Translations under genes and position numbers: made by a program
In this document: piece after piece, positions 16,939-51,398 of the stretch
Numbering within the stretch: the first letter of the stretch is position 1
Layout: each line of letters opens with the position of its first letter
Notes under the pieces: model-generated
Database searches by the model: none
What the model saw: the letters and a program-made list of their open reading frames with translations, nothing else
What the model was told of the DNA's origin: nothing
IMG/VR virus record: IMGVR_UViG_3300050120_000152
Span: 248,001 to 312,000 of that record
DNA: 64,000 bases
Source of the DNA: a virus
Strand: one strand, 5' to 3'

Positions 16939-17347
16939 TATTTTTAGCCAATTGTATGATTTCACCATCATTACAGGATATAGCTAATTTAAATTCTATA
17001 TTTTTGGTACCATCTTCAAAATTTATGGGAAGGGTTACGTGTGCTTCATTATCCATTTCACATAAATTGGTCATAATTTCTTTACCTAATAGTGATATTT
17101 TACCAGAACCACAAGCATTTTTCAAACTTTCATATGAGTCCACATATAAAACGTTATCAGAGCCATAGACCACATTAATAATAGGAGATTCGCTTAAACA
17201 ATCAATAGTAACTTTAGTTGATACTGTAACAGGCTCATCTTCTATTGCTTCCACAATAGAAGATTTAAATTCAACCTCAGAATGTGCTAAATCTATATTC
17301 TCGGTAATAATATATTTTAATAATTTTTCTAAATTTTCAAATTTCAT
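16928..17347 (-). CDS. Hypothetical protein, 139 aa
   Basis: No family recognised. The sequence is acidic, with an N-terminal amphipathic helix (LEKLLKYIITE) and then alternating strands, suggesting a small beta-rich domain. Its ATG overlaps the stop of the 520 aa gene by one base, and its 3' end overlaps the adhesin start, so it is tightly coupled to both. Co-expression with a virion-like protein and an adhesin suggests a structural or assembly role, by position only. Confidence 0.6.
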   Translation of the reverse strand: MKFENLEKLLKYIITENIDLAHSEVEFKSSIVEAIEDEPVTVSTKVTIDCLSESPIINVVYGSDNVLYVDSYESLKNACGSGKISLLGKEIMTNLCEMDNEAHVTLPINFEDGTKNIEFKLAISCNDGEIIQLAKNNEL

Positions 17348-23334: not shown

Positions 23335-23342
23335 TATTTATT
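23335..23342 (-). promoter_or_regulatory. Late promoter candidate, AATAAATA
   Basis: AATAAATA on the minus strand, 19 nt before the gp15 ATG, overlapping the last base pairs of the upstream fibre gene. Confidence 0.4.
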
Positions 23343-25518: not shown

Positions 25519-25526
25519 TATTTATG
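25519..25526 (-). promoter_or_regulatory. Late promoter candidate, CATAAATA
   Basis: CATAAATA on the minus strand, 22 nt before the ATG at 25497; it touches the stop codon of the giant gene. Confidence 0.42.
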
Positions 25527-28500
25527 TTGGTGTTGGAGTTAAGGTAATAGTAGGAGTTACTGTGACAGTAGCTGTTAATGTTGGTGTAATAGTAGGTGTT
25601 ACTGTGGCAGTAGCTGTTATGGTTGGTGTGATTGTAATAGTAGGAGTGACAGAGATTGTGGGTGTTATGCTTGGAGTGATTGTAATAGTAGGAGTGAGGG
25701 TGGGTGTTGGCGATGGAGTAATACCTACACCAGAAATAGCTTCATAATGTGCAAAAATACTATCATCGGTCAATGCTGCCCCATAAAATGAGAAATTATC
25801 TATTCCACCAACAAAATTGTTGATGCTTGGAATATAGAATGGTGAACCACCTATATTAATACCATAGGTATTTGAAAATAAATTATTTCCTGTAACTGGT
25901 ATGGAAGTTTCTTCTATACCATTCACAAAAATACACATTTCGTCATTCATTCTACGACATGTTATGACATAGGATGAACCATCTGCAGATGTAGTTGATT
26001 GTATTTCGGCGGCTGGGAAATCTGTGGTTGCTATTCTAAAAGCAAATTTTCCAGTCGATGGATCAATAGCTAATTGCATTTGTGGTTGTTGTGACGATGT
26101 ATTATATGGAATATACACCAACATTGGAATAGCAGCATGTTGCTCTGCAGTAGTAGCATTGGTAGTTATTTCAAAAGTAAAATCGCCCGGAATATCTAAG
26201 AAACTACCATATGTACCTAATACCATATTATTTTGAGTGAAGTCATTATTAAACAATATTGATCTTACCGATCCTGCAATCAATCCCGGCTCACCCAATG
26301 TTATATTACCATTATAATAACCATTATTGCCATATAGCGAACTATCTAACGCTGTAGATGTAGCTAAATCGTCAAACTTATAATAAACTAATGGATTATC
26401 ATTCATTACAGCAGAGTCATACATGCTGATAGGCACTGGTGATAATGTTGGTGTGATGGTTGGTGTAATAGTAGTAGTTATTGTTGGTGTAATTGTAGGT
26501 GTTGGTGTTGGAGTATTAGTTGCCATAGGTGTTGGAGTATTAGTTGCGGTAGGTACTGGTGTTCCTGTGGCTACTGGGGTTGTTGTAGGTGTGATAGTTG
26601 TTGTAGGTGTGATAGTAGTAGAAACTGTCAACGATATTGTTGGGGTTAGCGACGGCGTCACGGTTACGGTTGGCGTAATAGTTGTAGAAACTGTAATAGT
26701 AGGTGTTATACTTGGTGTTGGTGATGGTGATGGTAACGGTGGCTGTGTTGGAACTGCAATATTATCAGCAATATCACATGCTCCACCCGGAAGAATATTA
26801 TTGATAATAGTAGTAGGATTAATATCAGACACATTAACATTTTGTGAAACGTCAATAGCAACCCACGAAGTTTTGAAAAAATCTGCGCTATTTTTCTTCA
26901 AACTCATTGCATCATTAAATGCCGCAAAATAAATGTAGTTAATATTAGATATATCAAAATTATCATATATTACATACATGGTATTAACAATGTTATTAAT
27001 ATTATCAAAATTATTAATAGCTAAAAATGAGTTTATATCAATGTTTATAAAATCTTGTGTAGGATCATTTAAAATACTTTGAATGGTAGCCAAAGTTAAG
27101 CTAGATGATGTAAATATTTGTTCAACACCCATACCATATTTGGTATCAGTACCATAGATATTATCAAATAATATTCTATCTAATGTGGGTAACGTTATCG
27201 TAGTATCAATGATTTTATTAGAAACCGGGTATCCTACCAATGCTGATATTAATTTTTCCCATAGATATAGATCGATTTTCTGTGATTGATTTTTTCTAAA
27301 CATTTTCCATTCATAATGAACATTTTTTAATGCTAATGGTGATTTAACCGGATTTGTGGTTGAATAATCGTAAATATCACCATTTATTGGCATTCTATCT
27401 CTTAAAGTAAAATCACGAGTAAATCTAAGCGCATAACGATTATCATCATTTACTAAGCCCTTTAGACCGCGAATGATCATTTTATTGAATCTAGCAGGTA
27501 AATCGTAAGCTGCACCATCAAATACATCACCAAACACAATGCCATATCCATCATCATTGTAACGCATTCCCGATAATATCATATATGGGTTTGGGTTAGT
27601 AATCAAATCGGATTGCGCCTGTATGATTGTTGATTGATAATTGCTAGTATTAGTAATGGTTGTCGGTGAACCGTTTACCCAGAAATAATAATACGGTACT
27701 AATGCACCATTTGTATTGCTTACGACATAAGTGGTAGAGTATGGGGTATCATACTTATAAACCATATTGGTAATGTCATCAGCGGTGGGGATAGGTGCAG
27801 GTAGCACTACTGTAATATAATCTTGTATATCAGGTTTATTGATCTGTCCCGGTAATAGTGCACCATACATATAATCGTAAAAATTATATAGTGTTAAATC
27901 CACACTCAAATCATATGTACCGTTACGATATATATTTACACTTCCTGAGAATGGAACTACGGTGGTTGTTTGAATTAATGCAGCTAATATACTAAATCGT
28001 TGATCTGAAACTTGATTCCAATTAGGATTTGTTATAGAGCCTTCATTATAATATAGGTTAACTATTGGGGTACCAGAGTTTGGATACTGCGAAGTATACT
28101 CTGATGGAGGGACTAAAGATTCCGTCCATTGATATAAGTTCAGTTTACCAATATTCGATAATTTACCCCAATTAGCTATTCTATCATTAATATTAGGAAA
28201 TACGCCATGATCAAAATATGGGATATAATCAAGTTCAGTAGTATCCATCCAAACTTTACCAGCTTTATATTTTAACCATACATCATTATAAATATTTCCT
28301 GTAAAATCAATTGAATAGGTTGCTGGATCATATGCAGTCTTTATGTCAACTAACGAATAGGCATATTGATCATGTTGATTTAATGCGGGATTCCATATAG
28401 CAATTTGGTTAACGATTACGCCCGCAGTCTTATCTACAAATACTGAAGAATTTTGCGCATTATAGTTATAGATCAAACAACTTATTTGGACATTATTTAA

Positions 28501-31500
28501 TATAGTTGGATCGGTCGAGAACACCACAACTTGATTATTGATCATGGTATAATCTTGCTGATTAACTAATGATTTAGTATTCCCATTGGCATCCAAATAT
28601 GTAATGATAACGCCATCATAAATATCACCCAATGATAATATAATACGAGAATTTATATATAATAAATCGCTTTCCTGTAATGATATAATTTGTTTTACTG
28701 ATGCATTAAAGAAATATGATTGATTGGGGGCTATTTTATTTAATACATCGGGCTGATCCCACCATCGGGTATTATCGGTTAAAGCAATTCCAGTAAACGT
28801 ATCATCTAATGCATTTTCATCTGGTGCAATAAACTCTGCTCTAAACTCTGCTCCTATAGAATCGGAACGTTTTAATTTTAATTCAATATAATCTTTTTCT
28901 TTAGAATCGCCAAATCTAGCTAATTTATATACCCAGAATTCATCTAGAGTGGCTTTATTAAACAAGCTTTGGTTAGTATAGGCATCTATAGCTAAGTTTG
29001 TGCCTTTATTCTTAATCATACCACGCCAAAAAATGAAATCAGATTTTGAATTTACATTCAAGTCCGCCATATAATCTGATTGACCAGAATATCCCAAAGA
29101 CTTTCTTACTTCTTTAATTAAGGGTTTAGATTCTAATACGTTATAGGTATCATACATGTAACGTAAATCGGTCACTGCAGATTCAAAGTTTTGCATTAAA
29201 TCATCATTATGTATAATGAATCCGCCTGTATTTGGTCTTAATGTCATTCCGGGCTGGCGATTGAATTCTACAAAGAAACGTGGAGTTCTTAAACCCAAGA
29301 AAGAATCATATATTAAATTGTTTGAAACGGAATAATTATTTAAGGATAAAATATGTTCATATGCATCAATGAAAGCATGTATTCCGGCAATATATGATGG
29401 AAATGCTGAAATGGTATTTGATATAATTTGTTCGTTCGTTAATGATATTTGACTATATTCATCATGACGAAGTACCATCAATTTATCATGCGTTAACATT
29501 TGACCATACTGATTATATATTCTTTGATTAGTTAAAATATCATTACGATCATTACCTATCACATCAGATAAAATACCTTGACTATGATTTATACGCATAG
29601 CTTTTTTATAAGGATTTATTAAAAATTGTGGGTAATTTATTTGAGGTCTATAAATTTTGAATGATGATATGCCCGATCCTGATGTACTAAATGGTATAAA
29701 GATGCCCGCTAATGCATCGGAATTGGTATAAGCTAACTGAAAACCCATTCCATCAGATGATGGAATGACATAATAAGGAACGAACTGCTTTAATGGATTA
29801 TCAAATGGTTGTGGTAGTATTGAAGCATCAGATGCTGTTATCACTACTCGTTGCGCTTTATTGATTTGTGCACTAGGAATTGAAACATTAGAATCAGTAT
29901 ATAGAAATCGACTATTTACATAATCAGATTTTATTTGATATTCAAGATCGGTAGTTTGTTGTGATGTTGAAAGGACGTATAACCAATCGATAAAATATTC
30001 TATTTCTAATTGCCAATCATTTAATCTTCCAGTATTAGGATCAGAGTTATCAATGTCTTCCGTCATTGTTGAGAACCCGATGCTTGCTAGATAATCGGAA
30101 TATCCATCAATAAAATCTATCATTTGTTGTATATTTGTAATATACAACGGTTGAGAGGCATTTATAATGGTTCTAGTATCTGAGTAATGCTTTCTCCATG
30201 AGGTATTAACAGCATTTCCACCCAATGCTTTGAAGGTGGTTTGAATACGTCCTACAAATGGTGCAGATAATGATGTAGTCAAAGGTGTTATAGCACCCTT
30301 ATTAGCTAAAGCTGCATCAGGATTATTACTCAAGGAAAATGAATAATTATCCAATCTAATAAGATAATATGGAATGAATTCGTTAAATGGTGCAGGTAAT
30401 GCCGTATCAGTTGTTAAATATAATTCGGTTCCCGTTACCCAATCATCAGGTAATGTTCTACGAACAGATGGATAGATTTGCCCATCTATGGTATCAGAGG
30501 TTAAAGTTATAGTTTCATTGACAAATATTTTTGTTGATGAGTTAGCAATATCATAATAAATTGATTTTATTGTGTATGTACCGTTGAACTGTGTCGAATG
30601 GTTGATGACAAATGAAGTTCCTTCGACAAATGAAGTTGTTAAATTACCACTCAAATCAAAATATTGTTGGAATAAAAATCCAGTGTTAATAGATGCTGAT
30701 ATACCAGCATAATTATCATGTAAAGTAGAAAATAGACCATTATCATTGATGGTGATAGTTGTGTTTGCCTGAATGACGATATTTCCGTTACTTAAGTAAG
30801 CTGATGCCGCCGTACCTAATTGGTCATTCAATGTTATAATAGCTGCACTAATTGTAGGAGCATTAGTAGTATTTAATGTTAATATAATTGAATCAGAGCC
30901 GATACTAATTGATGCGGTATATGACATTGTACCAATATAGTTAGTCGAATTACTTAAATCAGCAGTTTCACTATAATTTATAGTTGAAATAGTAGCAGGG
31001 GTAGCAATACCAGCATCAATAATATCATATACGGAAATTTCAAATACCGGATTGCCAGTCAAAGATTTAAACCCAAAGTTTTCTTTTGGATAATATAAAA
31101 TATTGGTATTTGTGGGCGATGTTGATCCAAATTGTACTGTCCACCCTGTACCTAAATTACGTGTTTTTGAATATTTTGATGGTGAATTTAATACAGTACC
31201 AATCAATGAATCAAAACTTATATCATTGAATCCAAATGTTTTCTTTACATTTATTGTATAATCTTTGTTTGTAATATCAAAATTTTCATTATCGATATTT
31301 AAAGATGGGGTATCAATATATGAACCTATTAGATAGGATAGTTGGGTATCCCATGTTTTCCAATATGATCTGAATTGTGATGCCTCGCCATCATAACCAT
31401 GATATCTATTATAATTAATGTACCATTGATTTAAGCCGTTAGAATAGAAAGCTTTTCCATTAGCATCAATGTCACCATGGAAAATAGTATCTTTATGAGA

Positions 31501-34500
31501 AAATACTCGTTTTGTGGTATCATCTACATTTAAGCAATTTATCTTTTGTAATTTATTACCATTAAACGTCTCATAATTAAAATTAATAGGATCAATCTTA
31601 AATGATACTATCATCTGATCGTACAAATATTGCGCAGAAGTCTTCCATTCCCATTCATTGGGGTTTCCATCACCAAATGTATAATCTACATTTGGTGTGA
31701 TAATTTCCTGATTTAAATTGGCATCATATGGTGTTCTAATTTTTGCGGCCGTAGTATTCGCACTATTCCAAAAGGGTGGTAATAAATCATCAGGATTATA
31801 ACCATCTAATGTAGGAGTAGCTGCCATATTTACTGGTATGTAAAGATATGTTATTCCAGCTTGGCCTACTAATCCAGAGGACATATTACCATTAGGTAAT
31901 ATTTTACCTGACGGTACTGTACCATTGATAATATTGTTCCACATGAAACCATTCCAATGTCTTATACCAGTATTGTCGTGGTATATAGAATCCCACCATG
32001 TTGGTTTATCTTTATAATTTTGTAATTTCCACGGCTCAAGGTTTGGATATGGGGTTTGGTATAATTTGGTGTACAAACTTTGGTAGCTAGATGCTAAATC
32101 ATGTGACACGTTTCCTGTAACTGGATGTTCTTGAATTGTTGTAAATTCATAGTTCCATGTAAATGCATTGTTTGTTCTGAAATATGTATTCGTCAATGGA
32201 GTAGCAATATTACTATATGATGCCCATGCCCCAAATTGAGTGGCATTTAAATTTATAAATCTATTATTTGTATTATTTGTAGTAGCGTCATATATTAAAT
32301 TATCGTATATTGGACAAGCATCATACAAATTCTGTTCAACTTGTAACATGACATTAGCTAATATTTGATGGAAATCTACCAATTCCCATATAGTTGAAGT
32401 TGCTAATCTATATAATTTTCTAGTTTTTGCAACTGTATTAACACGAATTATTAAACTCCCAAATGACACGCCATTTGGAAATGGCGTGTCATCTGACGAG
32501 ACGGTTTGCTGAATTATACTAACCTGTTGTAATAATGTAGCAAAAAATAATTGAATTACTGATGGTTGAAGAATAATGTCCTGAATATGTCCATCATGGC
32601 ACGATACGGCATTTAGTTTTAATTTATCGTCAAATAAAGTGTAACAAACTTTCTTTTCAGCTAAACCAAAATAGGGAAGTGTTGCAACCCAATTTTCCAT
32701 ACCAACGCCAGTAGATTGATTATAAGTTGTGCTATCGCCAAACCATTCATTAAATTTTTCGTTTGATTTGTAAATGGTTATTAACAAATTATTTAAATAT
32801 GTTTGAAAAGATGATAGCGATGTATATGAAGTTTGATTTACTAATGATGATACAATATTTTTTATATATTCTTCTTGAATGAAATTATATCCATTTAAAT
32901 ACTGATCATGGCCGAATTGTATCAATTGTAGCGGGTTTACATTATTAACTAATGTAGATGATATAGATAAATCCATCCCATTATTATGTTCTTTAATTGT
33001 ACCACCTAATCCATAATTTATATTATCACTTAAATGAATTTGATTGATGTTTGTAGAATTTGGCACCCCCGGTACTTTTTGTGCTAAAATAATACTATTA
33101 AAATGTGATAGACATTCAGACAAATTAATATCTGATCTAAGTTGATGATCAATATTATAATACCATGGATTAGGCAATTCCCATGAACCATCAGCTAATA
33201 ATTGTGGAACATATTGCTCATTGTTTAATCCACGTTTCCATATAGTTTGCAATGGATAATTTGGTTGTGAAAAGTTTTTATATGAATATAATTCACCTGT
33301 ATCTGGATTAGATAGTTCTTGTACAAACCCATAATCATTCGTTAATGTATTATTGACGATTCGCTTAAGAATATAATTATTAACGGGATAAGTTTGATCT
33401 TCACGATATGTAAATATTCGCGATGCTATGGTTTCGGCCTTTCCTTCTACATCATATACAGTAAACCAAGGGTAAATATTAGTGGTATCCTTGCTTTGTT
33501 CAATTTTTCTAAATGATGTTATATTCAACAATTCATACGGAATCGTAGGGTCTACTAGGTTAGCATTAGTAACCATAGTTACAGCACGACGGCCAATATC
33601 ACTCAAAGCATATTCGCCCAGTTCAATACGGAGTAAATCATCTTTACCTAACGATACTGATTGGTCAAAAATGATAGTACCGACATAATCAGGGTAAATA
33701 TCGGATCGGCTATCTTGATAATTACCGTATTGACGAATATTATTAATATACACCCGAAGATCGCCTTCCTGATAGTCATCATAAAGAACTAACTGATGTA
33801 AGGAATTGTCAAATCTAATAGCAACACCAATATTATAATCATTTATATAAGAGAATGTCTGCCACATCAAACCGACATTGGTTTCATAACCTGCTCCTAT
33901 ATTAGAATAGGATGTTACGAAGACTTGTAACATGGGGTTAGGTACTGGTGCAATACTTGTTGCAGATACATCTTTAACACCGTAGAACATCCAATGTTTA
34001 TCATAACCCAACCATTGATCACCGGCTACTGTTTTTTCTGGCCCAACGGAAGACCCAACCGGAATATCAAATGGATTTGCTATATTCACCGTTAATGTTA
34101 TATAGGATTGATACATTGAGTTAGGAGTTTGCTGGGTATAGGCTACATTGGATACGACATAATATCCATTATTACCTACTGTACCCGATATCTTTATTCT
34201 TGAACCAATGGCAATATCATTGGTAACATTACCTAATGAGGGTGCCAATAAAATAGTATTTTCAGTTACAAAAATATAAGCCGGATTCAATGGATCGATA
34301 TTAGTGATATCTGAAATTTCAAATAATGTTGGTTCGAAAATAGTGTCGGAATAGATGTTAGATGTTAATGTTCTATATTTCCAATTATAAGTCGTTAATG
34401 ACGTTGTAGATAGCTCTAGGAATGGATCGAACTCTATGATAGGTAGTTGTGCGCGAATTTTACCAGAGAATGACTGTAACTCATTCTTATGAACCCACTG

Positions 34501-36018
34501 ATTGCTTGCTGACCATGGATCGGTTTGCGTTAATGACAATTTATATCGTTGATGTGCCGCTTCAACTAATAATGAAATATGATATACTTGTGGCACCCAA
34601 TCGTGTCCAGACCATTGCATAATTACATCATTCACCGAATCTATCCATATTTGATAGATTGTGGGGAACGATGGCGCAGTTGCACTTACGAGATAATCAT
34701 ATATGGTTTGTCTTACGATAGTGTAATGTAAATCTTCTTTAGTGAACATACGAATAGCGGCATCAACACCAATAAAATTATGTTGCACGGAAATAATGGT
34801 ATATGATCCGCTATTAGCACCATTAGTTAATTGTAAAATATCTCCCGGTCTGATTTCATTTGTAATAAAATCATAAGTAGTATCGTATATACCATGATTA
34901 CCTAAGAAAGAATACCCGTTGGTTGAACTCAATAACGGCAAATTCCTATCCCAGATTAATGATCCTAAATTGATATCATTCCACATGGAATTATATTGAA
35001 TAATAGAATCATCTGTGATGGAATTATATTCAGCATCCGCCAATGATGCCATAGGCATCATTGAAATTGTATGCCATGCGTCTGCGGCTGCAACAAGTTG
35101 ATTTACTATAATCTTTGTACTATTAGTAGAAACATTGAAGGTTGATGTAGTAGTAGACCATAACGTATCATAAATGATATTAGATTTGGTTAAAAATATA
35201 TAATCTTTAGTAAATATTTCACTTAAATCTCCCGCAACTATGAATGAATTATCATTACCTGTAGACAATATAGATAATCCAAAATTACACATTCCGGTGA
35301 ATGTACTTCCATCCATATTATTCAATACACTAATTTGTGTTAAGCCTGTGGTAGGATTTAATGATATGGATGATATTTGATTAATCGCTGAGCCTGTAGT
35401 ATTGTTGTTTTGAGTCAATAATATATAATCATATGCCTTGAAAGACGATAAAATGTTTCCTTGGACAGTTATGTTAAAAGAATCGAGTTGGGTAACCGCA
35501 AATACTGGATTGACCTTGTTTATAGTATTTTTATATTCTGTACTTCTACCCAATGCCCAATTAGTTTCATTTTTTATGGTTATATAATCGGGAACATCAT
35601 TAATATTGGGAGAATTCCAATAATAGTCTTGATAATTAATTAATTTATCAATGTCGATAGGTGGCGCATAGTTAAATTGAAGAGTTTTACCCCATTCATT
35701 AAATTGGGTAATATCTACATCAAGTCTAGACAAACGTTGTAAATAATCTTGAAAAGTTAAATATGCTGTTTCGGAACCTACGGCAACAGATGCCACCGGC
35801 TGTAACTGTTCAGTCTGACGATAAATTGTTTTTTCTATGATTTGCTTTAATGGATTATTTGGATCAACATCACCGATAATACCAACAACATGTTGGTATT
35901 CATCCTTTGTTAAAAAACGATTGAACAAATTTTCATTTATATTTTTAAGAAAAGCCGACTGAAGTTGCGCTGGCAGATAATCATTTAAATTTGTTCGTTG
36001 CTTTGTGTAATCACTCAT
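25522..36018 (-). CDS. Giant baseplate/tail structural protein (3498 aa) with LamG-like domain and Thr/Pro linkers
   Basis: Starts at the ATG at 36018; the TTG one codon earlier is less likely. It directly follows gp6 with the same polarity, the place of gp7 in T4 (1032 aa), so a baseplate wedge role is inferred from position only. Residues 1 to about 3085 are a long Asn/Ile/Tyr/Asp-rich, strand-rich body, probably many domains, with none recognised. About 3090-3197 is a Thr/Pro linker. About 3199-3428 is a concanavalin/LamG-like domain (NPLVYYKFDD, SSLYGNNGYYNG, CIFVNGIEE, GGIDNFSFYGAAL), typically glycan-binding. The last 70 residues are Thr/Pro repeats ending in a bare TLTPTPT. The gene is 10.5 kb and uninterrupted, and contains several strong hairpins. 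Confidence 0.7.
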   Translation of the reverse strand: MSDYTKQRTNLNDYLPAQLQSAFLKNINENLFNRFLTKDEYQHVVGIIGDVDPNNPLKQIIEKTIYRQTEQLQPVASVAVGSETAYLTFQDYLQRLSRLDVDITQFNEWGKTLQFNYAPPIDIDKLINYQDYYWNSPNINDVPDYITIKNETNWALGRSTEYKNTINKVNPVFAVTQLDSFNITVQGNILSSFKAYDYILLTQNNNTTGSAINQISSISLNPTTGLTQISVLNNMDGSTFTGMCNFGLSILSTGNDNSFIVAGDLSEIFTKDYIFLTKSNIIYDTLWSTTTSTFNVSTNSTKIIVNQLVAAADAWHTISMMPMASLADAEYNSITDDSIIQYNSMWNDINLGSLIWDRNLPLLSSTNGYSFLGNHGIYDTTYDFITNEIRPGDILQLTNGANSGSYTIISVQHNFIGVDAAIRMFTKEDLHYTIVRQTIYDYLVSATAPSFPTIYQIWIDSVNDVIMQWSGHDWVPQVYHISLLVEAAHQRYKLSLTQTDPWSASNQWVHKNELQSFSGKIRAQLPIIEFDPFLELSTTSLTTYNWKYRTLTSNIYSDTIFEPTLFEISDITNIDPLNPAYIFVTENTILLAPSLGNVTNDIAIGSRIKISGTVGNNGYYVVSNVAYTQQTPNSMYQSYITLTVNIANPFDIPVGSSVGPEKTVAGDQWLGYDKHWMFYGVKDVSATSIAPVPNPMLQVFVTSYSNIGAGYETNVGLMWQTFSYINDYNIGVAIRFDNSLHQLVLYDDYQEGDLRVYINNIRQYGNYQDSRSDIYPDYVGTIIFDQSVSLGKDDLLRIELGEYALSDIGRRAVTMVTNANLVDPTIPYELLNITSFRKIEQSKDTTNIYPWFTVYDVEGKAETIASRIFTYREDQTYPVNNYILKRIVNNTLTNDYGFVQELSNPDTGELYSYKNFSQPNYPLQTIWKRGLNNEQYVPQLLADGSWELPNPWYYNIDHQLRSDINLSECLSHFNSIILAQKVPGVPNSTNINQIHLSDNINYGLGGTIKEHNNGMDLSISSTLVNNVNPLQLIQFGHDQYLNGYNFIQEEYIKNIVSSLVNQTSYTSLSSFQTYLNNLLITIYKSNEKFNEWFGDSTTYNQSTGVGMENWVATLPYFGLAEKKVCYTLFDDKLKLNAVSCHDGHIQDIILQPSVIQLFFATLLQQVSIIQQTVSSDDTPFPNGVSFGSLIIRVNTVAKTRKLYRLATSTIWELVDFHQILANVMLQVEQNLYDACPIYDNLIYDATTNNTNNRFINLNATQFGAWASYSNIATPLTNTYFRTNNAFTWNYEFTTIQEHPVTGNVSHDLASSYQSLYTKLYQTPYPNLEPWKLQNYKDKPTWWDSIYHDNTGIRHWNGFMWNNIINGTVPSGKILPNGNMSSGLVGQAGITYLYIPVNMAATPTLDGYNPDDLLPPFWNSANTTAAKIRTPYDANLNQEIITPNVDYTFGDGNPNEWEWKTSAQYLYDQMIVSFKIDPINFNYETFNGNKLQKINCLNVDDTTKRVFSHKDTIFHGDIDANGKAFYSNGLNQWYINYNRYHGYDGEASQFRSYWKTWDTQLSYLIGSYIDTPSLNIDNENFDITNKDYTINVKKTFGFNDISFDSLIGTVLNSPSKYSKTRNLGTGWTVQFGSTSPTNTNILYYPKENFGFKSLTGNPVFEISVYDIIDAGIATPATISTINYSETADLSNSTNYIGTMSYTASISIGSDSIILTLNTTNAPTISAAIITLNDQLGTAASAYLSNGNIVIQANTTITINDNGLFSTLHDNYAGISASINTGFLFQQYFDLSGNLTTSFVEGTSFVINHSTQFNGTYTIKSIYYDIANSSTKIFVNETITLTSDTIDGQIYPSVRRTLPDDWVTGTELYLTTDTALPAPFNEFIPYYLIRLDNYSFSLSNNPDAALANKGAITPLTTSLSAPFVGRIQTTFKALGGNAVNTSWRKHYSDTRTIINASQPLYITNIQQMIDFIDGYSDYLASIGFSTMTEDIDNSDPNTGRLNDWQLEIEYFIDWLYVLSTSQQTTDLEYQIKSDYVNSRFLYTDSNVSIPSAQINKAQRVVITASDASILPQPFDNPLKQFVPYYVIPSSDGMGFQLAYTNSDALAGIFIPFSTSGSGISSFKIYRPQINYPQFLINPYKKAMRINHSQGILSDVIGNDRNDILTNQRIYNQYGQMLTHDKLMVLRHDEYSQISLTNEQIISNTISAFPSYIAGIHAFIDAYEHILSLNNYSVSNNLIYDSFLGLRTPRFFVEFNRQPGMTLRPNTGGFIIHNDDLMQNFESAVTDLRYMYDTYNVLESKPLIKEVRKSLGYSGQSDYMADLNVNSKSDFIFWRGMIKNKGTNLAIDAYTNQSLFNKATLDEFWVYKLARFGDSKEKDYIELKLKRSDSIGAEFRAEFIAPDENALDDTFTGIALTDNTRWWDQPDVLNKIAPNQSYFFNASVKQIISLQESDLLYINSRIILSLGDIYDGVIITYLDANGNTKSLVNQQDYTMINNQVVVFSTDPTILNNVQISCLIYNYNAQNSSVFVDKTAGVIVNQIAIWNPALNQHDQYAYSLVDIKTAYDPATYSIDFTGNIYNDVWLKYKAGKVWMDTTELDYIPYFDHGVFPNINDRIANWGKLSNIGKLNLYQWTESLVPPSEYTSQYPNSGTPIVNLYYNEGSITNPNWNQVSDQRFSILAALIQTTTVVPFSGSVNIYRNGTYDLSVDLTLYNFYDYMYGALLPGQINKPDIQDYITVVLPAPIPTADDITNMVYKYDTPYSTTYVVSNTNGALVPYYYFWVNGSPTTITNTSNYQSTIIQAQSDLITNPNPYMILSGMRYNDDGYGIVFGDVFDGAAYDLPARFNKMIIRGLKGLVNDDNRYALRFTRDFTLRDRMPINGDIYDYSTTNPVKSPLALKNVHYEWKMFRKNQSQKIDLYLWEKLISALVGYPVSNKIIDTTITLPTLDRILFDNIYGTDTKYGMGVEQIFTSSSLTLATIQSILNDPTQDFINIDINSFLAINNFDNINNIVNTMYVIYDNFDISNINYIYFAAFNDAMSLKKNSADFFKTSWVAIDVSQNVNVSDINPTTIINNILPGGACDIADNIAVPTQPPLPSPSPTPSITPTITVSTTITPTVTVTPSLTPTISLTVSTTITPTTTITPTTTPVATGTPVPTATNTPTPMATNTPTPTPTITPTITTTITPTITPTLSPVPISMYDSAVMNDNPLVYYKFDDLATSTALDSSLYGNNGYYNGNITLGEPGLIAGSVRSILFNNDFTQNNMVLGTYGSFLDIPGDFTFEITTNATTAEQHAAIPMLVYIPYNTSSQQPQMQLAIDPSTGKFAFRIATTDFPAAEIQSTTSADGSSYVITCRRMNDEMCIFVNGIEETSIPVTGNNLFSNTYGINIGGSPFYIPSINNFVGGIDNFSFYGAALTDDSIFAHYEAISGVGITPSPTPTLTPTITITPSITPTISVTPTITITPTITATATVTPTITPTLTATVTVTPTITLTPTPT
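25525..25737 (-). repeat. C-terminal Thr/Pro repeat of the giant protein
   Basis: About 70 codons of Thr-Pro/Ile-Thr/Val-Thr repeats ending the reading frame, with no domain after them. Confidence 0.8.
26430..26754 (-). repeat. Internal Thr/Pro linker of the giant protein
   Basis: About 108 codons of Thr/Pro repeats separating the body from the LamG-like domain. Confidence 0.8.
29746..29767. repeat. Intragenic hairpin, 10-bp arms, 2-nt gap
   Basis: CATTCCATCA and TGATGGAATG around GA, inside the giant gene. Confidence 0.55.
30126..30148. repeat. Intragenic hairpin, 10-bp arms
   Basis: GTTGTATATT and AATATACAAC around TGT, inside the giant gene. Confidence 0.55.
32463..32492. repeat. Intragenic hairpin, 14-bp perfect arms
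   Basis: ATGACACGCCATTT and AAATGGCGTGTCAT with only GG between them, in the middle of the giant gene. No T tract follows on either strand. It is the strongest intragenic inverted repeat seen in the window. Confidence 0.75.
35041..35063. repeat. Intragenic hairpin, 10-bp arms
   Basis: CAATGATGCC and GGCATCATTG around ATA, inside the giant gene. Confidence 0.55.
35878..35900. repeat. Intragenic hairpin near the 5' end of the giant gene
   Basis: AATACCAACA and TGTTGGTATT around a 3-nt loop, about 40 codons after the start. Confidence 0.55.
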
Positions 36019-36048
36019 CAAGAGAATCCATCATTAGATTGTATGATC

Positions 36049-39740: not shown

Positions 39741-41885
39741 TTATCCTCTCACATGATCAAAGACTGTTAACGCTACCGGGTCAATAGATGGTATATGGAA
39801 TGGAATTACACATTCCATATTAACTTGTAATCCAGTAGTTATTAATGGTAATACAACTTCGAATGACGATGGTAAAGTAATATGTATATTTGCTAATGCT
39901 CCCAATGTTTGAATAGCATTTTCTGCATAGCTAACATAACCTTCGATTTCAGAAAGAATAGTAGATGATGGTATATTAAGTTCAGATAACACACCTATTG
40001 CCGTACTGATTGTACTTAATGCAGTATTGGCATAATAAGACAATGTATCTAACTGTAACCCATTTTCATTAAGTTTACCCAAAATACTACCTGCCCCACC
40101 CAATGTAGGCAATGACATATTTAATGATGTAGATATCATATGTATGTCATTAGTAGCTTGTAGCATTAATCCACCAGCGCTAAATGATAATGATGGTGCT
40201 AATGGATTACATGATATTGCGGATAATAAATTATTATCTCCCATAACCATATCGAATGATTCTCTGTTTTTAGCTACTGAAAATAAGTTACTTCCCGGAT
40301 CAGTAGGTGAGTTACTTGCTAATGTAGTATTTCCACCAGATTGTACGTCAAATGTTCCAGTGGTAGAAATGGTTACCGCAATATCAGTTACACCTATCTG
40401 ACTATTGGGCGATTTTATAATAACTTGTCCAGTTTCCGAATTACCGCCCACTGATTGTATGATAACATCACCACCCATAGATTTTAATACAAGATTTTCC
40501 CATGATGCTATATTCATGGTTCCTTCATAAGAATATATATTAACGTCAGATTTAGATGCCAACCAATATTCATCAATAGCAAACATGTTGGCTTTACCAC
40601 TAGCAGACATGTTATAATCTCCGGTTACTGATAAATTATAATGTCCATCATTTGTAATTATATCTATATCATTTTTAACTTGTGTGGAAAAATCACTTCC
40701 TACAGTTAAACAATAATTTCCACCTATTTCTGACATAGCATCACTCAAGCTCATTTGACGATATATCGTAGACAACAAATGTAAGTCATTTTGTGCTTGA
40801 ATTCTGACTTGACCAGATAATGGTGCTTCGGACATTTTTTCTAAACCATTATCAGTACCGGCGTAGATATACACGCCTTCTTTACCCTGAATTCGAACTG
40901 ATCCACCAGCATTTATATTAACATCCATATCAGAACTTAAAGATATTCTTCGGCTAGAGTATACGTCTACATTACCCGCAGAATCCATTTCCATCCATGC
41001 ATTACCCGTATTGGTTTTTACATAAATTCTATCATTAGTATCATCCATCAATATCATATGACCAGATGCAGAACGTAATTTAGTTCTACTATTAAAAATT
41101 CTATCATCCAAGGTAATAGAAGCAAATCCCGGCGAAGTCAATGCAATAACTTTAGATGCTTTGAACGATAATCCACCAAATCCACTCCAATCATACCCAT
41201 TTGATCCAACGATATCTTGATTGAATCCAAATTGTTGGGATTTGGCGATATCTTCTTGCATTTGATCTAAATATGACCCTTTATCGGGTGTTGGTGGTTG
41301 ATTAAGTGAACCATCTACTGCAGCAATAGAATAGTCTGCTATTCTAGCTTGCCATTCAGGTGAATTATTATTACCACCAAATGAGGCTTTAGCATTGTCA
41401 TATGCTGGCTGAATAGGTTTTCCCGCTGATGATAATGGGCCATCGGCAGACCCACCAGATGACCATTTAAACCGACCATTACCTAAAGTGTGGGTTTCTT
41501 GTTGATCATACATAGTACCAATCCAGTAGCGCCGACGAAGATCGCCGTCAATACATCCTACTAATACATTAGCCCCTACTTCGGGGATAGCCCAGAATCC
41601 ATAACTTACAGCACCAGTCGTAGTTTGACCATTACGCTCAAATGATGAGTTAGCAATAGTACCACCAAAGGGTGAGATATAAACTGCCCAAGGCAATTGT
41701 AATATTTTAGATGGATCATCGCCATGAGACGGACAAAATACTCTTAATCGACCTTGTTGTAAAGGATCATCCGTATCAACAACAATACCAGCGGTTAATG
41801 AAGTAGTAACATGAAAATAATCACCTTTATTATCGGTAGAATATCTTTTGTCTAAAATATCTAATAGTTCATCTTGGTTAATCAT
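39741..41885 (-). CDS. 5: Baseplate hub/needle protein gp5-like (VgrG-type), without lysozyme domain
   Basis: A 714 aa protein. Residues 1 to about 160 contain the gp5/VgrG OB-fold: TAGIVVDTDDPLQQGRLRVFCPSHGDD, LPWAVYISPFGG, FWAIPEVGANVLVGCIDGD and RYWIGTMYDQ. The middle and C-terminal parts (about 230-560) are repeated short strands (KASKVIALTSPG, GNVDVYSSRRISLSSDMDVNINAGGS) typical of the gp5 needle beta-helix. T4 gp5 has a lysozyme domain between OB-fold and needle; here that domain is missing and a lysozyme is found in the next gene upstream. It overlaps that gene by 4 bp (ATGA), so the two are co-translated. Confidence 0.85.
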   Translation of the reverse strand: MINQDELLDILDKRYSTDNKGDYFHVTTSLTAGIVVDTDDPLQQGRLRVFCPSHGDDPSKILQLPWAVYISPFGGTIANSSFERNGQTTTGAVSYGFWAIPEVGANVLVGCIDGDLRRRYWIGTMYDQQETHTLGNGRFKWSSGGSADGPLSSAGKPIQPAYDNAKASFGGNNNSPEWQARIADYSIAAVDGSLNQPPTPDKGSYLDQMQEDIAKSQQFGFNQDIVGSNGYDWSGFGGLSFKASKVIALTSPGFASITLDDRIFNSRTKLRSASGHMILMDDTNDRIYVKTNTGNAWMEMDSAGNVDVYSSRRISLSSDMDVNINAGGSVRIQGKEGVYIYAGTDNGLEKMSEAPLSGQVRIQAQNDLHLLSTIYRQMSLSDAMSEIGGNYCLTVGSDFSTQVKNDIDIITNDGHYNLSVTGDYNMSASGKANMFAIDEYWLASKSDVNIYSYEGTMNIASWENLVLKSMGGDVIIQSVGGNSETGQVIIKSPNSQIGVTDIAVTISTTGTFDVQSGGNTTLASNSPTDPGSNLFSVAKNRESFDMVMGDNNLLSAISCNPLAPSLSFSAGGLMLQATNDIHMISTSLNMSLPTLGGAGSILGKLNENGLQLDTLSYYANTALSTISTAIGVLSELNIPSSTILSEIEGYVSYAENAIQTLGALANIHITLPSSFEVVLPLITTGLQVNMECVIPFHIPSIDPVALTVFDHVRG
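39793..39820. repeat. Intragenic hairpin near the 3' end of the gp5-like gene
   Basis: ATATGGAATG and CATTCCATAT with an 8-nt loop, inside the last 30 codons. Confidence 0.5.
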
Positions 41886-44323
41886 GTTTTATCATCCGTG
41901 CGATATAATTGTAGAGATTGTGTAAAAAACGATCCAGTAATAACCGATTTTATTACTCCAAGATGATAATATCCTGTATAATAATATTGTAGCGGCATAT
42001 CTTTTGGTATAGTCAGGCCAATGCTATTAGATGGTTTAATATATACATCCAATTTTGCATACATTGGATAATATTCAGGGAATTTATAAAAATTTGGTGA
42101 GTCTGCATCTTCAGCAGATACCTTTATCGGATTTCTAAATAAATCTGATAATAAATTAGGATTTCCTATAATAGTAATATATAATTTTGATGTTTGTGTT
42201 AAGTTTGTTTTCACTAAATTATCTATTGATATTGGGCCATTAGGGCGCTCTAATCCAAAGTTTTTAGGATTAGCCATCCCTCTAACACCCGAATAAGCCG
42301 TATTAAAAAATCCTATATCAGGATTACGTTCTAACATGATCTGCTCTCTATTACCATAGATTGATAGATTATTGGTACTATTATTAGGTTGACTCATAAT
42401 ACCTAAATCAGTATCCGAAAATAATGACATTGATAATTTTATGATATCTCTATCTCTACCATTTTTTTGGTAAGTAAATTCTAATGGTTTAAAAAACCCC
42501 TCCCCAGTTCCCGGCCCAGAATCAGTAGTAGTGCTATTTAATGGTACAACATATTGTTTAATCGTTATATTAAATTCATATTTCGTGTCACACGTTTTGA
42601 CGCATGAAATATTACATTTATAGCTTTTTTGTAAGGATGAGGCAGAGATAGCATCATTACCCACTTGATTTGATAATTTCATTAAGTTATTAACTACTTT
42701 GGTAAGCATCTTACCGGGCTTAACTTGATATACCTTTATCCCTGATGATGTTTGAGATTGGTCAGGTTGTTCAAATGGCATATTTCTATTATCTATAATA
42801 TAGTCATTATAGATAGGGTCTAGATTTATATTATAATCTATAGGTAATATTCCATCAGATTTTTTTTGGTCATTGGGGATAAGCGAATCAACATAATTAT
42901 TATTTATAGATGCTAACCATTGTGATAATGTCGATGGTGGTGGTGATTTTAGAGCTTTCAGCGCTGCCTCAAGACCATTCATAACATCTTGAATAGTTTT
43001 CATTGTTTTATCACTATTTAATCTGCGGCTTCTATACCCATTTAACGCATCGTTTTTAGCCTTTATATCAATGTTTTGGTTTGATCCATGATCTAAATTA
43101 TTTTGTACTGGTGCTGGTTGATTCCCGGTAGGTGGTGGCAGACCACCGAATATAGCAGCTTCAGCAGCGCGACGATTTACTAAGCTTTGATTTACCTTAC
43201 CTCCAGAATATACATAATCATTAAATGCTTGTTGTGCACCATTATAATCACCTGAATTGAGTTTTGCTAATAATCCTTTATATCCATTAGCACCTACGTT
43301 ATAAGTTAAACTTACTAAGGCATCATATTTACCTTGGTCTAATAATACAGTAACCTTGGTACGTACAGCAGCTTGCGCCCATTGTAAATCTTCCAATAAA
43401 AATGCATCTGCTTGTGATTGATTAATCACATCACCCTCATGTACACCTTTTCGGTGACCATAACCAATAGCCCATGCATTTACATCCCAATAAGCCGTTA
43501 ATCGTAATCCTTCAAATTGTTTTATTAAATTTAAACCGGCATCACTTATCGAGAACGATGATGCTGGTTGACCATTATTAATAGTTACCGTTGGTGTAGG
43601 TGTTAATCCCGGTACTGGAGTTGGAGTTATAGTAACCGTAGGGGTAACGGTAATAGTTGCTGTTGGAGTAACGGTAGGTGTGGTTACATATGATTGGGCG
43701 CTTGCAATGTTAGCAGAGGTATTACTATCTTGATGAGTAATAGTCATCTGAAACATTTTTGAATAATTTGGTAATAATGAAAATGTATTATAATCTGCAA
43801 CATATAACATTGTATAAAAATTATTAATAGTATCGACATCATTATATGAATGTGTAAGATTATACATATGAAAAATTAGAGGTTTGATCGGTATAATTTC
43901 AGTTTTATCGTCATATGTAGTGCCAATGATATATGTTTTTAATGCAAATATAATATGTGTTTCTGATATATTTAATTTTGATGCGACCTGATCACGTAAA
44001 AAATTTTGAAAATATCCACCTACCGAATCGGTAATAGTTAATGCTCCCGTCATAGATGATGTTGATAAATCAAAAAATGAATGAAAGGAAAATTCATTTT
44101 CATGCGAATATATGATGAATGAATTATCGACAAACTCATTTACTACTACTATACCGGGTTGACCGCACCCAGTACCCACAAATTCTGTACCAGCTTTACC
44201 AATAGTATAATCTATTGTACTATTAACCGCATCAGAGGTAGTGGTAAATGCGACCAAAATATTTTTGATCACATAACTTCTATATTTCATTAACGGATTT
44301 TGTGTATCTGACGTATTAGGCAT
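41882..44323 (-). CDS. Baseplate hub protein carrying the tail lysozyme (GH24) domain
   Basis: An 813 aa protein in three parts. Residues 1-212 are an unassigned N-terminal domain; 213-255 are a Thr/Pro linker. Residues 256-393 are a phage-type lysozyme: KQFEGLRLTAYWD with catalytic Glu270 and Asp279, then WAIGYGH, SLTYNVGANGYKG and NRRAAEAAIFGG. The Thr of the T4 Glu-Asp-Thr triad appears to be Ala284. Residues 394-813 are a large domain rich in strands with a CVKTCDTKYEF stretch, perhaps a hub/gp27-like part. It probably digests peptidoglycan during injection, the role of gp5 in T4. The placement beside a lysozyme-free gp5 suggests the domain moved between hub subunits. Confidence 0.75.
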   Translation of the reverse strand: MPNTSDTQNPLMKYRSYVIKNILVAFTTTSDAVNSTIDYTIGKAGTEFVGTGCGQPGIVVVNEFVDNSFIIYSHENEFSFHSFFDLSTSSMTGALTITDSVGGYFQNFLRDQVASKLNISETHIIFALKTYIIGTTYDDKTEIIPIKPLIFHMYNLTHSYNDVDTINNFYTMLYVADYNTFSLLPNYSKMFQMTITHQDSNTSANIASAQSYVTTPTVTPTATITVTPTVTITPTPVPGLTPTPTVTINNGQPASSFSISDAGLNLIKQFEGLRLTAYWDVNAWAIGYGHRKGVHEGDVINQSQADAFLLEDLQWAQAAVRTKVTVLLDQGKYDALVSLTYNVGANGYKGLLAKLNSGDYNGAQQAFNDYVYSGGKVNQSLVNRRAAEAAIFGGLPPPTGNQPAPVQNNLDHGSNQNIDIKAKNDALNGYRSRRLNSDKTMKTIQDVMNGLEAALKALKSPPPSTLSQWLASINNNYVDSLIPNDQKKSDGILPIDYNINLDPIYNDYIIDNRNMPFEQPDQSQTSSGIKVYQVKPGKMLTKVVNNLMKLSNQVGNDAISASSLQKSYKCNISCVKTCDTKYEFNITIKQYVVPLNSTTTDSGPGTGEGFFKPLEFTYQKNGRDRDIIKLSMSLFSDTDLGIMSQPNNSTNNLSIYGNREQIMLERNPDIGFFNTAYSGVRGMANPKNFGLERPNGPISIDNLVKTNLTQTSKLYITIIGNPNLLSDLFRNPIKVSAEDADSPNFYKFPEYYPMYAKLDVYIKPSNSIGLTIPKDMPLQYYYTGYYHLGVIKSVITGSFFTQSLQLYRTDDKT
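43558..43687 (-). repeat. Thr/Pro linker before the tail lysozyme domain
   Basis: About 43 codons of Thr/Pro/Val/Ile repeats of the same composition as in the fibre and giant proteins. Confidence 0.75.
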
Positions 44324-45638: not shown

Positions 45639-46484
45639 ATGACATCAGAAGTCGATCTACAACATAATCCACTTATTCATAAAATGATTAAATCCAATGC
45701 TATTCCCGGCACTGTGTTTAGATTACCATCTAAAGGTATCCCTTATACTAATGGAGAGTTGGCTGATGAAGTGTTAGGTGGTGAAATTTTGATTTATCCT
45801 ATGTCAACATTAGATGAAATATATTTAAAATCTCCTGATATGCTTTTCCAAGGTACTGCAGTTGAAAAAACTCTAGTTAGATGTTGCCCACAGATTATTA
45901 AACCTTTAGAGCTATTGGCTAAGGATGTAGATTATATCCTTACTTGTATGAGACAAGTATCTTATGGAAATATTTTAACTGTTCCATACGAATGTAATTG
46001 TCCAAAAGCTAAACCAATTGACCTACAAGTCCCTGTATCAGACTTTTTATCTAAAACTAAGACCATATCCGAAAAATCTTTAAAACAGCTTACCTTCACT
46101 CTTGATAGTTTTTTGATAAAGACTAAGTATGTGCGATTCGGACAAATGATTAAATTAAATCAAGAAAATCTTACTGAGGGTGATGAAGATACTCCAGATA
46201 ATATTTTTGATACGTTTATTAAAAATCTAGCAGCAAATATCGAATCCATTGATGCTATAGAAGATAATAATATTATTGTAGATTTCTTGAAAGCCCAGCA
46301 ACGGTCTTTCCAAATGTCTCTTCTTAAGAATATTCAAGATATCAATAATTGGGGGGTAAATTTTGAATATAAATTTACCTGTAAATATTGTGATAAAGTT
46401 AAAACGACCGCGATTGCATTGAATCCTGTAAGTTTTTTTACGGAACCCTCAAATCAGGAACCGGAGAGCAAAAGCGACGATTAA
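45639..46484 (+). CDS. 26: Baseplate hub assembly protein gp26-like (T4_baseplate family), tail chaperone-like
   Basis: A 281 aa protein from the ATG at 45639; an upstream in-frame extension to 45498 would run through both promoters and is rejected. It has the family signature VFRLPSKGIPYTNGEL, EILIYPMSTLDEIYLKSPDMLF, then CCPQIIKPLELLAKDVDYIL and RQVSYGNILTVPYECNCPKAK. A Cys pair (CNC) and a second (CKYC) near the end may bind zinc. In T4 gp26 acts in hub assembly. Codons 265-267 contain a perfect T_TTT_TTT slip site, giving a likely -1 frameshift product of about 345 aa. Confidence 0.85.
   Translation: MTSEVDLQHNPLIHKMIKSNAIPGTVFRLPSKGIPYTNGELADEVLGGEILIYPMSTLDEIYLKSPDMLFQGTAVEKTLVRCCPQIIKPLELLAKDVDYILTCMRQVSYGNILTVPYECNCPKAKPIDLQVPVSDFLSKTKTISEKSLKQLTFTLDSFLIKTKYVRFGQMIKLNQENLTEGDEDTPDNIFDTFIKNLAANIESIDAIEDNNIIVDFLKAQQRSFQMSLLKNIQDINNWGVNFEYKFTCKYCDKVKTTAIALNPVSFFTEPSNQEPESKSDD
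46433..46439 (+). promoter_or_regulatory. Programmed -1 frameshift slippery site T_TTT_TTT
   Basis: Seven T in the exact X_XXY_YYZ phase of the gp26 frame (AGT TTT TTT ACG). After a -1 slip the next codon is TAC at 46439 and the frame stays open to TAA at 46673-46675. Confidence 0.62.
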
Positions 46485-46675
46485 AAAATGATCTTGAGGG
46501 TCAAAGTAGAAAATTATATAAATCAGGTGTAGAAATAATGTACTTTATGCGTGGCGCACTTAGTCGTGAAAGCATGTTGGATTTAACTTCATGGGAAAAA
46601 GATATATTGTCCGAATTCCTTAATGAGCGCATAGAAATTGAGATGCAAAAAAAGAATACCCCACCAATTTATTAA
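46439..46675 (+). CDS. -1 frame extension of gp26 (gp51-like/tail chaperone C-part), 78 codons
   Basis: Read in the -1 frame, this stretch encodes about 78 residues, including LEGQSRKLYKSGVEIMYFMRG and TSWEKDILSEFLNERIEIEM, ending in TPPIY. The composition is that of a real, helical protein. No ATG, GTG or TTG occurs in this frame before the ATG at 46538, which has no ribosome site and would give only 45 aa, so frameshift fusion to gp26 is the simplest way to make it. It corresponds in position to gene 51, next to 26 in T4, and resembles the downstream partner of tail-assembly chaperone pairs such as lambda G/GT. Confidence 0.6.
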   Translation, partial: YGTLKSGTGEQKRRLKNDLEGQSRKLYKSGVEIMYFMRGALSRESMLDLTSWEKDILSEFLNERIEIEMQKKNTPPIY

Positions 46676-50531: not shown

Positions 50532-51398
50532 ATGTTAATCTATAAAATAACACATATGAATAGCGGTAAATCATACATAGGACTTACAACGCGTAAAACG
50601 GTATATCAACGATATAGAGAACATTTTTACGTTGCAAAACGTCATCATAATAAAAAAGGTAGTCCACATAAATTCAAAGATATTTTACATGAAGAAAATT
50701 ACGATAAATCTAAATTTAATGTTACTATATTAGATACGGCGTCAACTTTAATAGAACTTATTGAAAAAGAAGCTTATTATATAAAAAAATATGATACGGT
50801 TAATTCTGGATTTAATGTAGTAAATGGCGGAAGTGATACAGTGCATAGAGAGGCGGTATCTAAAGGATTGATAAAATATTGGGCAAATGTTGACGAAACC
50901 AAAAGACAAGAAAGAATAGATATACTTAAACATATGATATCAGAAAATAAAGAGAATTATGTCAATAGAGCAAAAAGTTTAGCAATCAAAAACTGTTTAC
51001 CTATAAAACTTATTTTATATGGGAATGAACACACATTCCAATCTTTATATTCTAATAATGGCTTAAAAAAATTTTGTGATATTAACAACATTAATTTTTA
51101 TGATTGTAAACAAAAGGCCAAGGGTACAATAGAGCAAGACCATGAAATCAAATGTTATTTCTTAGATATTAATGGTAATGAAATTAAATTTAATACAACA
51201 AGAAAAAAATTTGAAAAAAGTAAATATACAAAAACGAAATATAAATCTTATACTTTATTATCACCAAATAATAAAAAAACTGTTATTACTAATTTAAAAC
51301 AATTCTGTCATGAACATAGTCTGTGTATAAAAAATATATATGGAATATTAAACGGTAAAGAAAAGAGTCATAAAGGATGGAAAATATATAATGCTTAA
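50532..51398 (+). CDS. Free-standing GIY-YIG homing endonuclease (Seg-like)
   Basis: A 288 aa protein. The GIY-YIG domain is at 1-95: MLIYKITHMNSGKSYIGLTT (GIY and YIG elements), then VYQRYREHF with the Arg, and LIEKEAYYIKKYDT with the catalytic Glu, closing in GFNVVNGG. The remainder is Lys/Asn-rich with short DNA-binding repeats (a nuclease-associated modular unit), ending HKGWKIY. It lies between helicase and gene 47 as a mobile insertion and overlaps gene 47 by 8 bp. Base composition is more AT-rich than the neighbours. It has its own late box, while the genes around it look early, as seen for T4 Seg proteins. Confidence 0.88.
   Translation: MLIYKITHMNSGKSYIGLTTRKTVYQRYREHFYVAKRHHNKKGSPHKFKDILHEENYDKSKFNVTILDTASTLIELIEKEAYYIKKYDTVNSGFNVVNGGSDTVHREAVSKGLIKYWANVDETKRQERIDILKHMISENKENYVNRAKSLAIKNCLPIKLILYGNEHTFQSLYSNNGLKKFCDINNINFYDCKQKAKGTIEQDHEIKCYFLDINGNEIKFNTTRKKFEKSKYTKTKYKSYTLLSPNNKKTVITNLKQFCHEHSLCIKNIYGILNGKEKSHKGWKIYNA

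Follow-up and report, generated by a model that had tools for sequence, protein, structure and literature searches.

A conserved poly-T heptamer in the gp26-like gene of a jumbo-type phage as a candidate -1 frameshift site yielding counterparts of T4 gp26 and gp51

Introduction

How is an open frame that overlaps the end of a phage gene, and that lacks a start of its own, brought to expression? The question is raised by a gp26-like gene lying in a 64,000-nucleotide stretch of viral DNA, here called the window, which comprises bases 248001-312000 of a 340-kb virus record (IMG/VR IMGVR_UViG_3300050120_000152). The original prediction, made from the letters alone, was that a T_TTT_TTT heptamer in this gene is a -1 slippery site creating a fusion with the frame in the gp51 position, a type of shift that it did not regard as established for gp26-type genes.

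That last point has been overtaken, as papers citing Vladimirov et al. 2022 credit the poly-T signals of T4-like chaperones to that work. To judge by its title and by the sentences that cite it, Vladimirov, Gautam and Davidson 2022 (Virology 566:9-15) is devoted to T4-like tail assembly chaperones. With this reference, the available text of the PRFect paper (PMC10885494) states that in some T4-like phages two chaperone genes, one short and one long and fused, take the place of frameshifting, and that of the phage Adele paper (PMC12846349) treats poly-T shift signals as known in the TAC-N genes of T4-like phages. In our reading of these citing passages, the T4-like chaperones in question are gp26/gp51 and, as far as sequence and the citing sentences go, the window site is a divergent case of an already known T4-like chaperone frameshifting.

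For T4 itself, the accessible part of PMC5009743 names this phage as the exception to G/GT frameshifting. The T4 tail review (PMC3004832), in its accessible part, describes gp26 and gp51 as hub assembly chaperones but refers as well to genetic evidence that places gp26 in the hub; a role of T4 gp26 as chaperone only is disputed. According to the available text of PMC3037559, gp51 is missing only in Aeh1, and the cyanophage gp51 has about 20% of the normal length, being devoid of some 200 N-terminal residues. A gp26 shift is not mentioned in the available parts of PMC9024508, PMC2993671, PMC12859696, PMC11131426 and PMC9603447, and in the literature outside subscription journals, as far as its text was accessible, our search returned no shift described by name for RaK2-, GAP32- or XacN1-like phages or for cyanophages.

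Results

The gp26-like gene and its -1 frame

The features of the locus are collected in Table 1. Reading of the frames confirmed the original prediction in its essentials: the heptamer stands in exact X_XXY_YYZ phase, the -1 frame stays open for 78 codons past the slip with no start before a weak internal ATG, and translation gives both expected products, the long one being a fusion of 345 aa (267 + 78). The gp26-like protein matches PF12322 T4_baseplate (gp26/gp51) over residues 71-267 with 34.6 bits, the curated cut-off being 24.5, and phrog_150 at 3.2e-12; it is the only PF12322 match across the 340-kb record. Within the 46 window ORFs of at least 100 aa, which are largely non-overlapping, in-phase T_TTT_TTY occurs at 3 sites per 20,206 codons, the sole T_TTT_TTT being the one of the gp26-like gene; from this frequency about 0.004 such sites are expected in the 27-codon overlap. 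Phe-Phe pairs are written NNT TTT TTY in 3 of 37 cases in the same ORFs, the heptamer included.

Table 1. Coordinates of the features of the gp26-like locus in the window
Feature	Positions	Strand	Remarks
gp26-like gene, 0 frame	45639..46484	+	short product of 281 aa; proposed tail assembly chaperone, N part
-1 frame, whole open stretch	46403..46675	+	82 nt shared with the gp26-like gene
slippery heptamer T_TTT_TTT, -1 phase	46433..46439	+	read as AG[T TTT TTT] ACG, X_XXY_YYZ
-1 frame tail	46439..46675	+	78 codons and stop; proposed counterpart of the gp51 C-terminus
predicted stem, possible stimulator	46445..46501	+	46445-46456 with 46489-46492 and 46494-46501
first ATG, -1 frame	46538..46540	+	33 codons into the tail; no Shine-Dalgarno-like motif directly upstream

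Conservation of the heptamer

Homologues were collected by protein similarity to gp26, never by the heptamer, using single proteins as queries; L104 and L106, which are pieces of one split T4-type gene, were set aside. Near the gp26 stop an in-phase heptamer followed by an open -1 tail was found at 109 of the 135 gp26-family loci, in the form T_TTT_TTC (102), T_TTT_TTT (5) or T_TTT_TTG (2), so that the check by conservation in related phages that accompanied the original prediction came out in its favour. Seventeen positives are of the jumbo type (the window, L001, L003-L014 and L107-L109, of which L108 and L109 encode an identical gp26 protein), 12 of the 55 matching jumbo records having been read for the heptamer; these jumbo relatives share 20-39% identity with the window protein. 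The remaining positives are 80 cyanophage-type loci (L020-L099) and Sf-FS3, RL38J1, IC12, L100, phiN3, SRB7757, Bhz51, Aeh1, P-RSM6, R10Z, S-RSM4 and ACP17. The site is intact in 80/80 cyanophage-type loci, the best 80 of at least 591 matches, which amount to 47 distinct full-length 94-nt sequences and hence are not independent. In the positives the -1 frame extends 51-75 codons beyond the gp26 stop, with the exceptions of L036 and L055 (contig end). L011 is a weaker case, its heptamer lying 70 nt upstream of the gp26 stop, and was excluded from the codon-frequency, folding and start/Shine-Dalgarno analyses.

Codon choice at the Phe-Phe site

The cyanophage-type site is written NNT TTT TTC in all 80 loci, whereas other Phe-Phe pairs of the same genes are written NNT TTT TTY in 1 of 80 cases. 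The preceding codon is Ser AGT (35 loci), Ser TCT (28), Asp GAT (15) or Asn AAT (2); since both AGT and TCT precede the site, conservation of the T spans two serine codon boxes, and the codons adjoining the site are variable. The product of the background codon frequencies over 21 positive representatives is 10^-17.4, a figure which treats lineages as independent and leaves out five heptamer-less named relatives, whose proteins end in IFI, IFT, LFA or AFM and not in Phe-Phe. The codon table over 104 loci, selected for having the site, is a description and not a test. In the heptamer-bearing RL38J1, IC12, phiN3, Bhz51 and XacN1, TTT makes up 11-27% of the Phe codons, the G+C-rich RL38J1 standing at 11%. 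The T4-type gp26 has Phe-Phe near its end in 5/6 loci, written TTC TTT or TTT TTT preceded by G or A, and the heptamer in 0/6. A chance run of T is ruled out by the conservation at 109/135 loci together with the codon choice, and the view that the window heptamer is a conserved site is supported by these sequence comparisons.

Identity of the -1 tail

PF12322 matches both T4 gp26 (8.8e-64) and T4 gp51 (3.9e-52), indicating that the two are paralogues, and phrog_634 ('baseplate hub assembly catalyst') matches residues 147-246 of T4 gp51 (1.2e-23). The same phrog_634 recognises the -1 tails of Sf-FS3 (7.9e-27), phiN3 (1.3e-22), R10Z (7.9e-22), Aeh1 (2e-14) and SRB7757 (3.6e-11), each alignment starting at the slip, with residue 2 of the piece; the PhiSH19 tail scores 0.0028 and the joined product of Aeh1 2.3e-16. 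By these comparisons the -1 tail of the smaller relatives tested is homologous to gp51. The phrog_634 profile search gave no match for the window tail or the window fusion, nor for the tails of PBECO4, Phosso, Atu_ph07, XacN1, RAS14 and RaK2, and none of the family profile searches matched the window tail, whose direct matches (tblastn) are RAS14 and CM1 (3e-8) and XacN1 (5e-4). In hhalign comparisons with the gp51 C-terminus, cyanophage tails reached 96.7% and small-phage tails 96.5%. All jumbo tails together gave 88.9% against small-phage tails and 35.4% against the gp51 C-terminus, and for the window subgroup the values were 80.0% (small-phage tails), 9.7% (gp51 C-terminus) and 8.9% (RaK2-like tails); the maxima over 100 shuffles each were 5.1% for jumbo tails and 3.2% for small-phage tails. 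The gp51 identity proposed for the window tail is thus indirect, as any link runs only via intermediates and the tail has no family profile match. The proposed fusion with a gp51-position frame agrees with these results, directly in five smaller relatives and, more tentatively, through intermediates in the window, where the tail would be a counterpart of the gp51 C-terminus.

Across 30 whole records, two PF12322 copies are present in 4/4 of the T4-type and one in 25 of the 26 others, including that of the window; SCTP-2 has 0 PF12322 matches and its gene was found by tblastn. In the records read, the two forms would come either from one gene with the heptamer or from two genes without it, and a third case is formed by five Ackermannviridae-like records with one PF12322 copy and no heptamer.

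With regard to existing annotation, the small 'gp51' genes annotated in Sf-FS3, P-RSM6, S-RSM4 and phiN3 (L016, L114, L118 and L121) lie within the gp26 -1 tail; that of S-RSM4 begins 63 nt past the heptamer and loses part of the tail. In Aeh1 (L117, 2187-2369) a counterpart of the 'missing' gp51 is present as the unannotated -1 tail that matches phrog_634. Both the short cyanophage gp51 and the absent Aeh1 gp51, as described in the available text of PMC3037559, fit a -1 tail.

Possible stimulators and starts of the second frame

The stem predicted in the window has 12 bp and one bulge at 46493, and begins 5 nt past the heptamer; it folds at -15.1 kcal/mol (z -1.93), and 7/200 shuffles fold equally well. 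Over 21 representatives the mean downstream folding z is -1.88 at the site versus -0.16 to -0.68 at seven upstream offsets, with the first paired base 5-8 nt downstream of the heptamer in 13/21. Folding is strong in Atu_ph07 (z -7.8), XacN1 (-4.5) and Phosso (-4.4), and an excess is absent in XbC2, RaK2 and RL38J1, the stem not being universal. Covariation gives the cyanophage stem little backing: of its 9 pairs 1 is changed on both sides, and 6 of the 34 sequences used, out of the 47 distinct ones, break that pair.

A Shine-Dalgarno-like motif placed 11-15 nt upstream is at a known position for ribosomal stimulators. Such a motif begins 11-15 nt before the heptamer in 8/11 non-jumbo representatives and in 0/13 jumbo ones, and in phiN3 it lies 21-22 nt from the heptamer. 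GAG encodes the glutamate at codon 8 from the end in 74 of the 80 cyanophage-type genes, versus 421/1,805 elsewhere. Downstream stem and upstream motif look like alternative stimulators.

As for starts, PA5oct and SRB7757 have no ATG, GTG or TTG within the first 45 codons past the slip, and the first ATG lies at least 30 codons into the tail in the window, RAS14, RaK2 and Vibrio 2.275. Three of 24 slippery-site representatives (L001, XbC2 and L122) have a Shine-Dalgarno-like motif ahead of their first candidate start. Relatives whose second frame has a clear start and ribosome site of its own, named at the outset as the finding that would speak against the fusion, are therefore few where the heptamer is present, and this survey makes an independent start improbable for the window and for the majority of the slippery-site representatives.

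Relatives without the heptamer

The 26 heptamer-less loci of the 135 comprise six of the T4 type (T4, L101-L103, L105 and Aeromonas phage 31), with a separate gp51 in 6/6, and 20 from Ackermannviridae and similar phages: PhiSH19, phiEa2809 and YC (Ackermannviridae), K475, Cygsa01 and L123-L137, fetched with PhiSH19. Our impression is that these 20 form one group. They lack the heptamer and keep the -1 tail (20/129 non-T4-type loci), so that the tail can be expressed in another way. Here the second frame may have an independent start, TAATG-type starts being found in three of the five named members (K475, YC and Cygsa01). The ATG of these three corresponds to ATT in the PhiSH19 type and to ATA in phiEa2809, and PhiSH19 (L110), phiEa2809 (L111) and L123-L137 have neither the heptamer nor an ATG, GTG or TTG at the beginning of the conserved -1 tail. 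The segment attttcatttaaTTTTTGAAATTGATTT is identical in 9 distinct sequences of the PhiSH19, phiEa2809 and L123-L137 group. One might think, for PhiSH19-type tails, of initiation at AUU or of a stop-hop that leads from one AUU codon to the following one.

Structure predictions and genome neighbours

The AlphaFold model of the window gp26-like protein has a pLDDT of only 70.4, and its search against the PDB gave nothing significant (best E 1.5; the HK97 chaperone 2ob9 at rank 38, E 5.7). A viral structure library yielded 55 matches with an E value of 0.001 or lower, and the named proteins among the 50 matches listed are mostly baseplate or uncharacterised proteins. The tail model has a pLDDT of 87.5, with helices at 2-6, 9-38, 43-47 and 51-73, and no significant match in the PDB; a profile search of solved structures returned no match to solved chaperones. 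The gene next after the gp26-like gene is RuvC-like (phrog_159), and no tape measure family match was obtained among six window regions searched.

Elsewhere in the window, low-complexity Thr-Pro repeats of the TPTPTI type occur in the proteins at 14908-16971, 23341-25497, 25522-36021 and 41882-44323, the first of which also has repeated GWDTSNVTSMSGMF-like units. An ORF of 288 aa at 50532-51398, beginning MLIYKITHMNSGKSYIGLT, which we take to resemble a GIY-YIG homing endonuclease, sits between a helicase-like and a nuclease-like ORF, both named by reading. On the minus strand, 54705-55220 matches the late sigma factor family phrog_234 (3.2e-27).

Discussion

In the present study we propose that a single gene very probably gives rise, by programmed -1 frameshifting, to the counterparts of both gp26 (short form) and gp51 (long form), a proposal built on the arrangement and conservation of the sequence. 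Most ribosomes would read the gp26-like gene to its stop and produce the tail assembly chaperone of 281 aa, and a minority would move one base back on T_TTT_TTT to give the long protein with its helical tail of 78 aa, the stem 5 nt downstream perhaps aiding the slip. Slippage itself and its rate are what we infer from the site. The short form would resemble T4 gp26 and the long form T4 gp51, as with lambda G and GT, and both together may accompany the tape measure and hub proteins and bring in tail subunits; this chaperone role is suggested by T4 work and by analogy with lambda. In T4-type phages two paralogous genes, one short and one long in frame, take the place of the shift.

The main alternative reading is that the second frame forms a small independent gene, with its own start or reached by reinitiation past the gp26 stop. 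Many records of relatives annotate it as a small CDS of its own, cyanophage tails have an ATG a few codons past the slip, and in the Ackermannviridae-like loci the tail persists in the absence of the heptamer, K475, YC and Cygsa01 having a TAATG; L001, XbC2 and L122 do have a Shine-Dalgarno-like motif ahead of the first candidate start. However, this motif is lacking in the other 21 of the 24 representatives, starts are absent from the first 45 codons or lie deep in the tail in the phages named above, the cyanophage ATG sits inside a predicted stem, and a separate gene would leave the retention of the heptamer without a reason, which makes this reading very unlikely for us. That RNA polymerase rather than the ribosome slips on the T run is, we consider, extremely unlikely. 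In some hosts slippage can occur on seven consecutive T, yet 102 of the 109 positives have T6C and not T7, and both this break in the run and its strict phase relative to the codons agree with slippage of tandem tRNAs, as the upstream Shine-Dalgarno-like motif of 8/11 non-jumbo representatives also speaks for the ribosome.

The run might also have arisen as a side effect of Phe-Phe being conserved in genomes rich in A+T, and a C-terminal Phe-Phe is indeed conserved in the protein, T4 gp26 included. Nevertheless, T4-type gp26, where gp51 is a gene of its own, spells this pair without the heptamer in 5/6 loci, phages with few TTT among their Phe codons keep the heptamer, the same cyanophage-type genes contrast 80/80 with 1/80, and the -1 frame is open and conserved, so that we find this explanation hardly credible. 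Least probable of all, to the point of being negligible, is a homopolymer error of sequencing or assembly that splits one in-frame gene: the window does come from an IMG/VR virus record and contains a T7 run, but the same arrangement recurs in many separately deposited phage genomes.

The frameshifting thus preferred can be compared with known systems. In lambda G/GT, with counterparts in P2 and other long-tailed phages, a -1 frameshift yields a short/long pair, and the same is proposed for the window, which has an in-phase heptamer within the overlap, a second frame open and without its own start, and a site conserved in divergent relatives. Unlike that kind, the window protein has no sequence or fold match to solved tail chaperones, and downstream of its gene lies the RuvC-like gene instead of a recognised tape measure gene. 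With T4 the window shares PF12322, found in both gp26 and gp51, gp51 being a gp26-like core with a C-terminal tail that is related to the -1 tail of the smaller relatives; however, genes 26 and 51 of T4 are separate, on opposite strands and without heptamer, whereas the window has one gene, and gene 25 occupies the -1 frame that follows T4 gene 26. The T4-like chaperones of Vladimirov et al., as the citing sentences present them, have a -1 poly-T signal and short and long forms, as proposed for the window, which differs in belonging to a divergent jumbo branch and in its tail without a phrog_634 match.

We lean, with some reservation, towards the idea that gp26 frameshifting is ancestral to the T4-type superfamily including the jumbo phages, an idea that takes in the losses in T4-type and Ackermannviridae-like phages and an exchange of stimulators. 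The T4-type loss would have occurred by duplication into gp26 and an in-frame long gp51, the Ackermannviridae-like phages would have swapped the shift for another recoding or a non-AUG start, and the stimulator would have been exchanged between an upstream Shine-Dalgarno-like motif in smaller phages and a downstream stem in jumbo phages. On this view the cyanophage gp51 of about 20% length and the apparent lack of gp51 in Aeh1 (PMC3037559) would both be accounted for.

If the proposed frameshifting is true, an oddity of annotation would be explained: the cyanophage and marine vibriophage 'gp51', which according to the available text of PMC3037559 lacks some 200 N-terminal residues, would be the -1 end of a gp26 fusion, and the gp51 of Aeh1, listed there as missing, would be neither truncated nor missing but likewise such an end. 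Annotators could merge both frames in such phages. Phages with one shifting gene and phages with two genes form natural pairs in which the importance of the ratio between the two forms could be tested, and T4, a very well studied contractile phage, would gain a counterpart to lambda G/GT.
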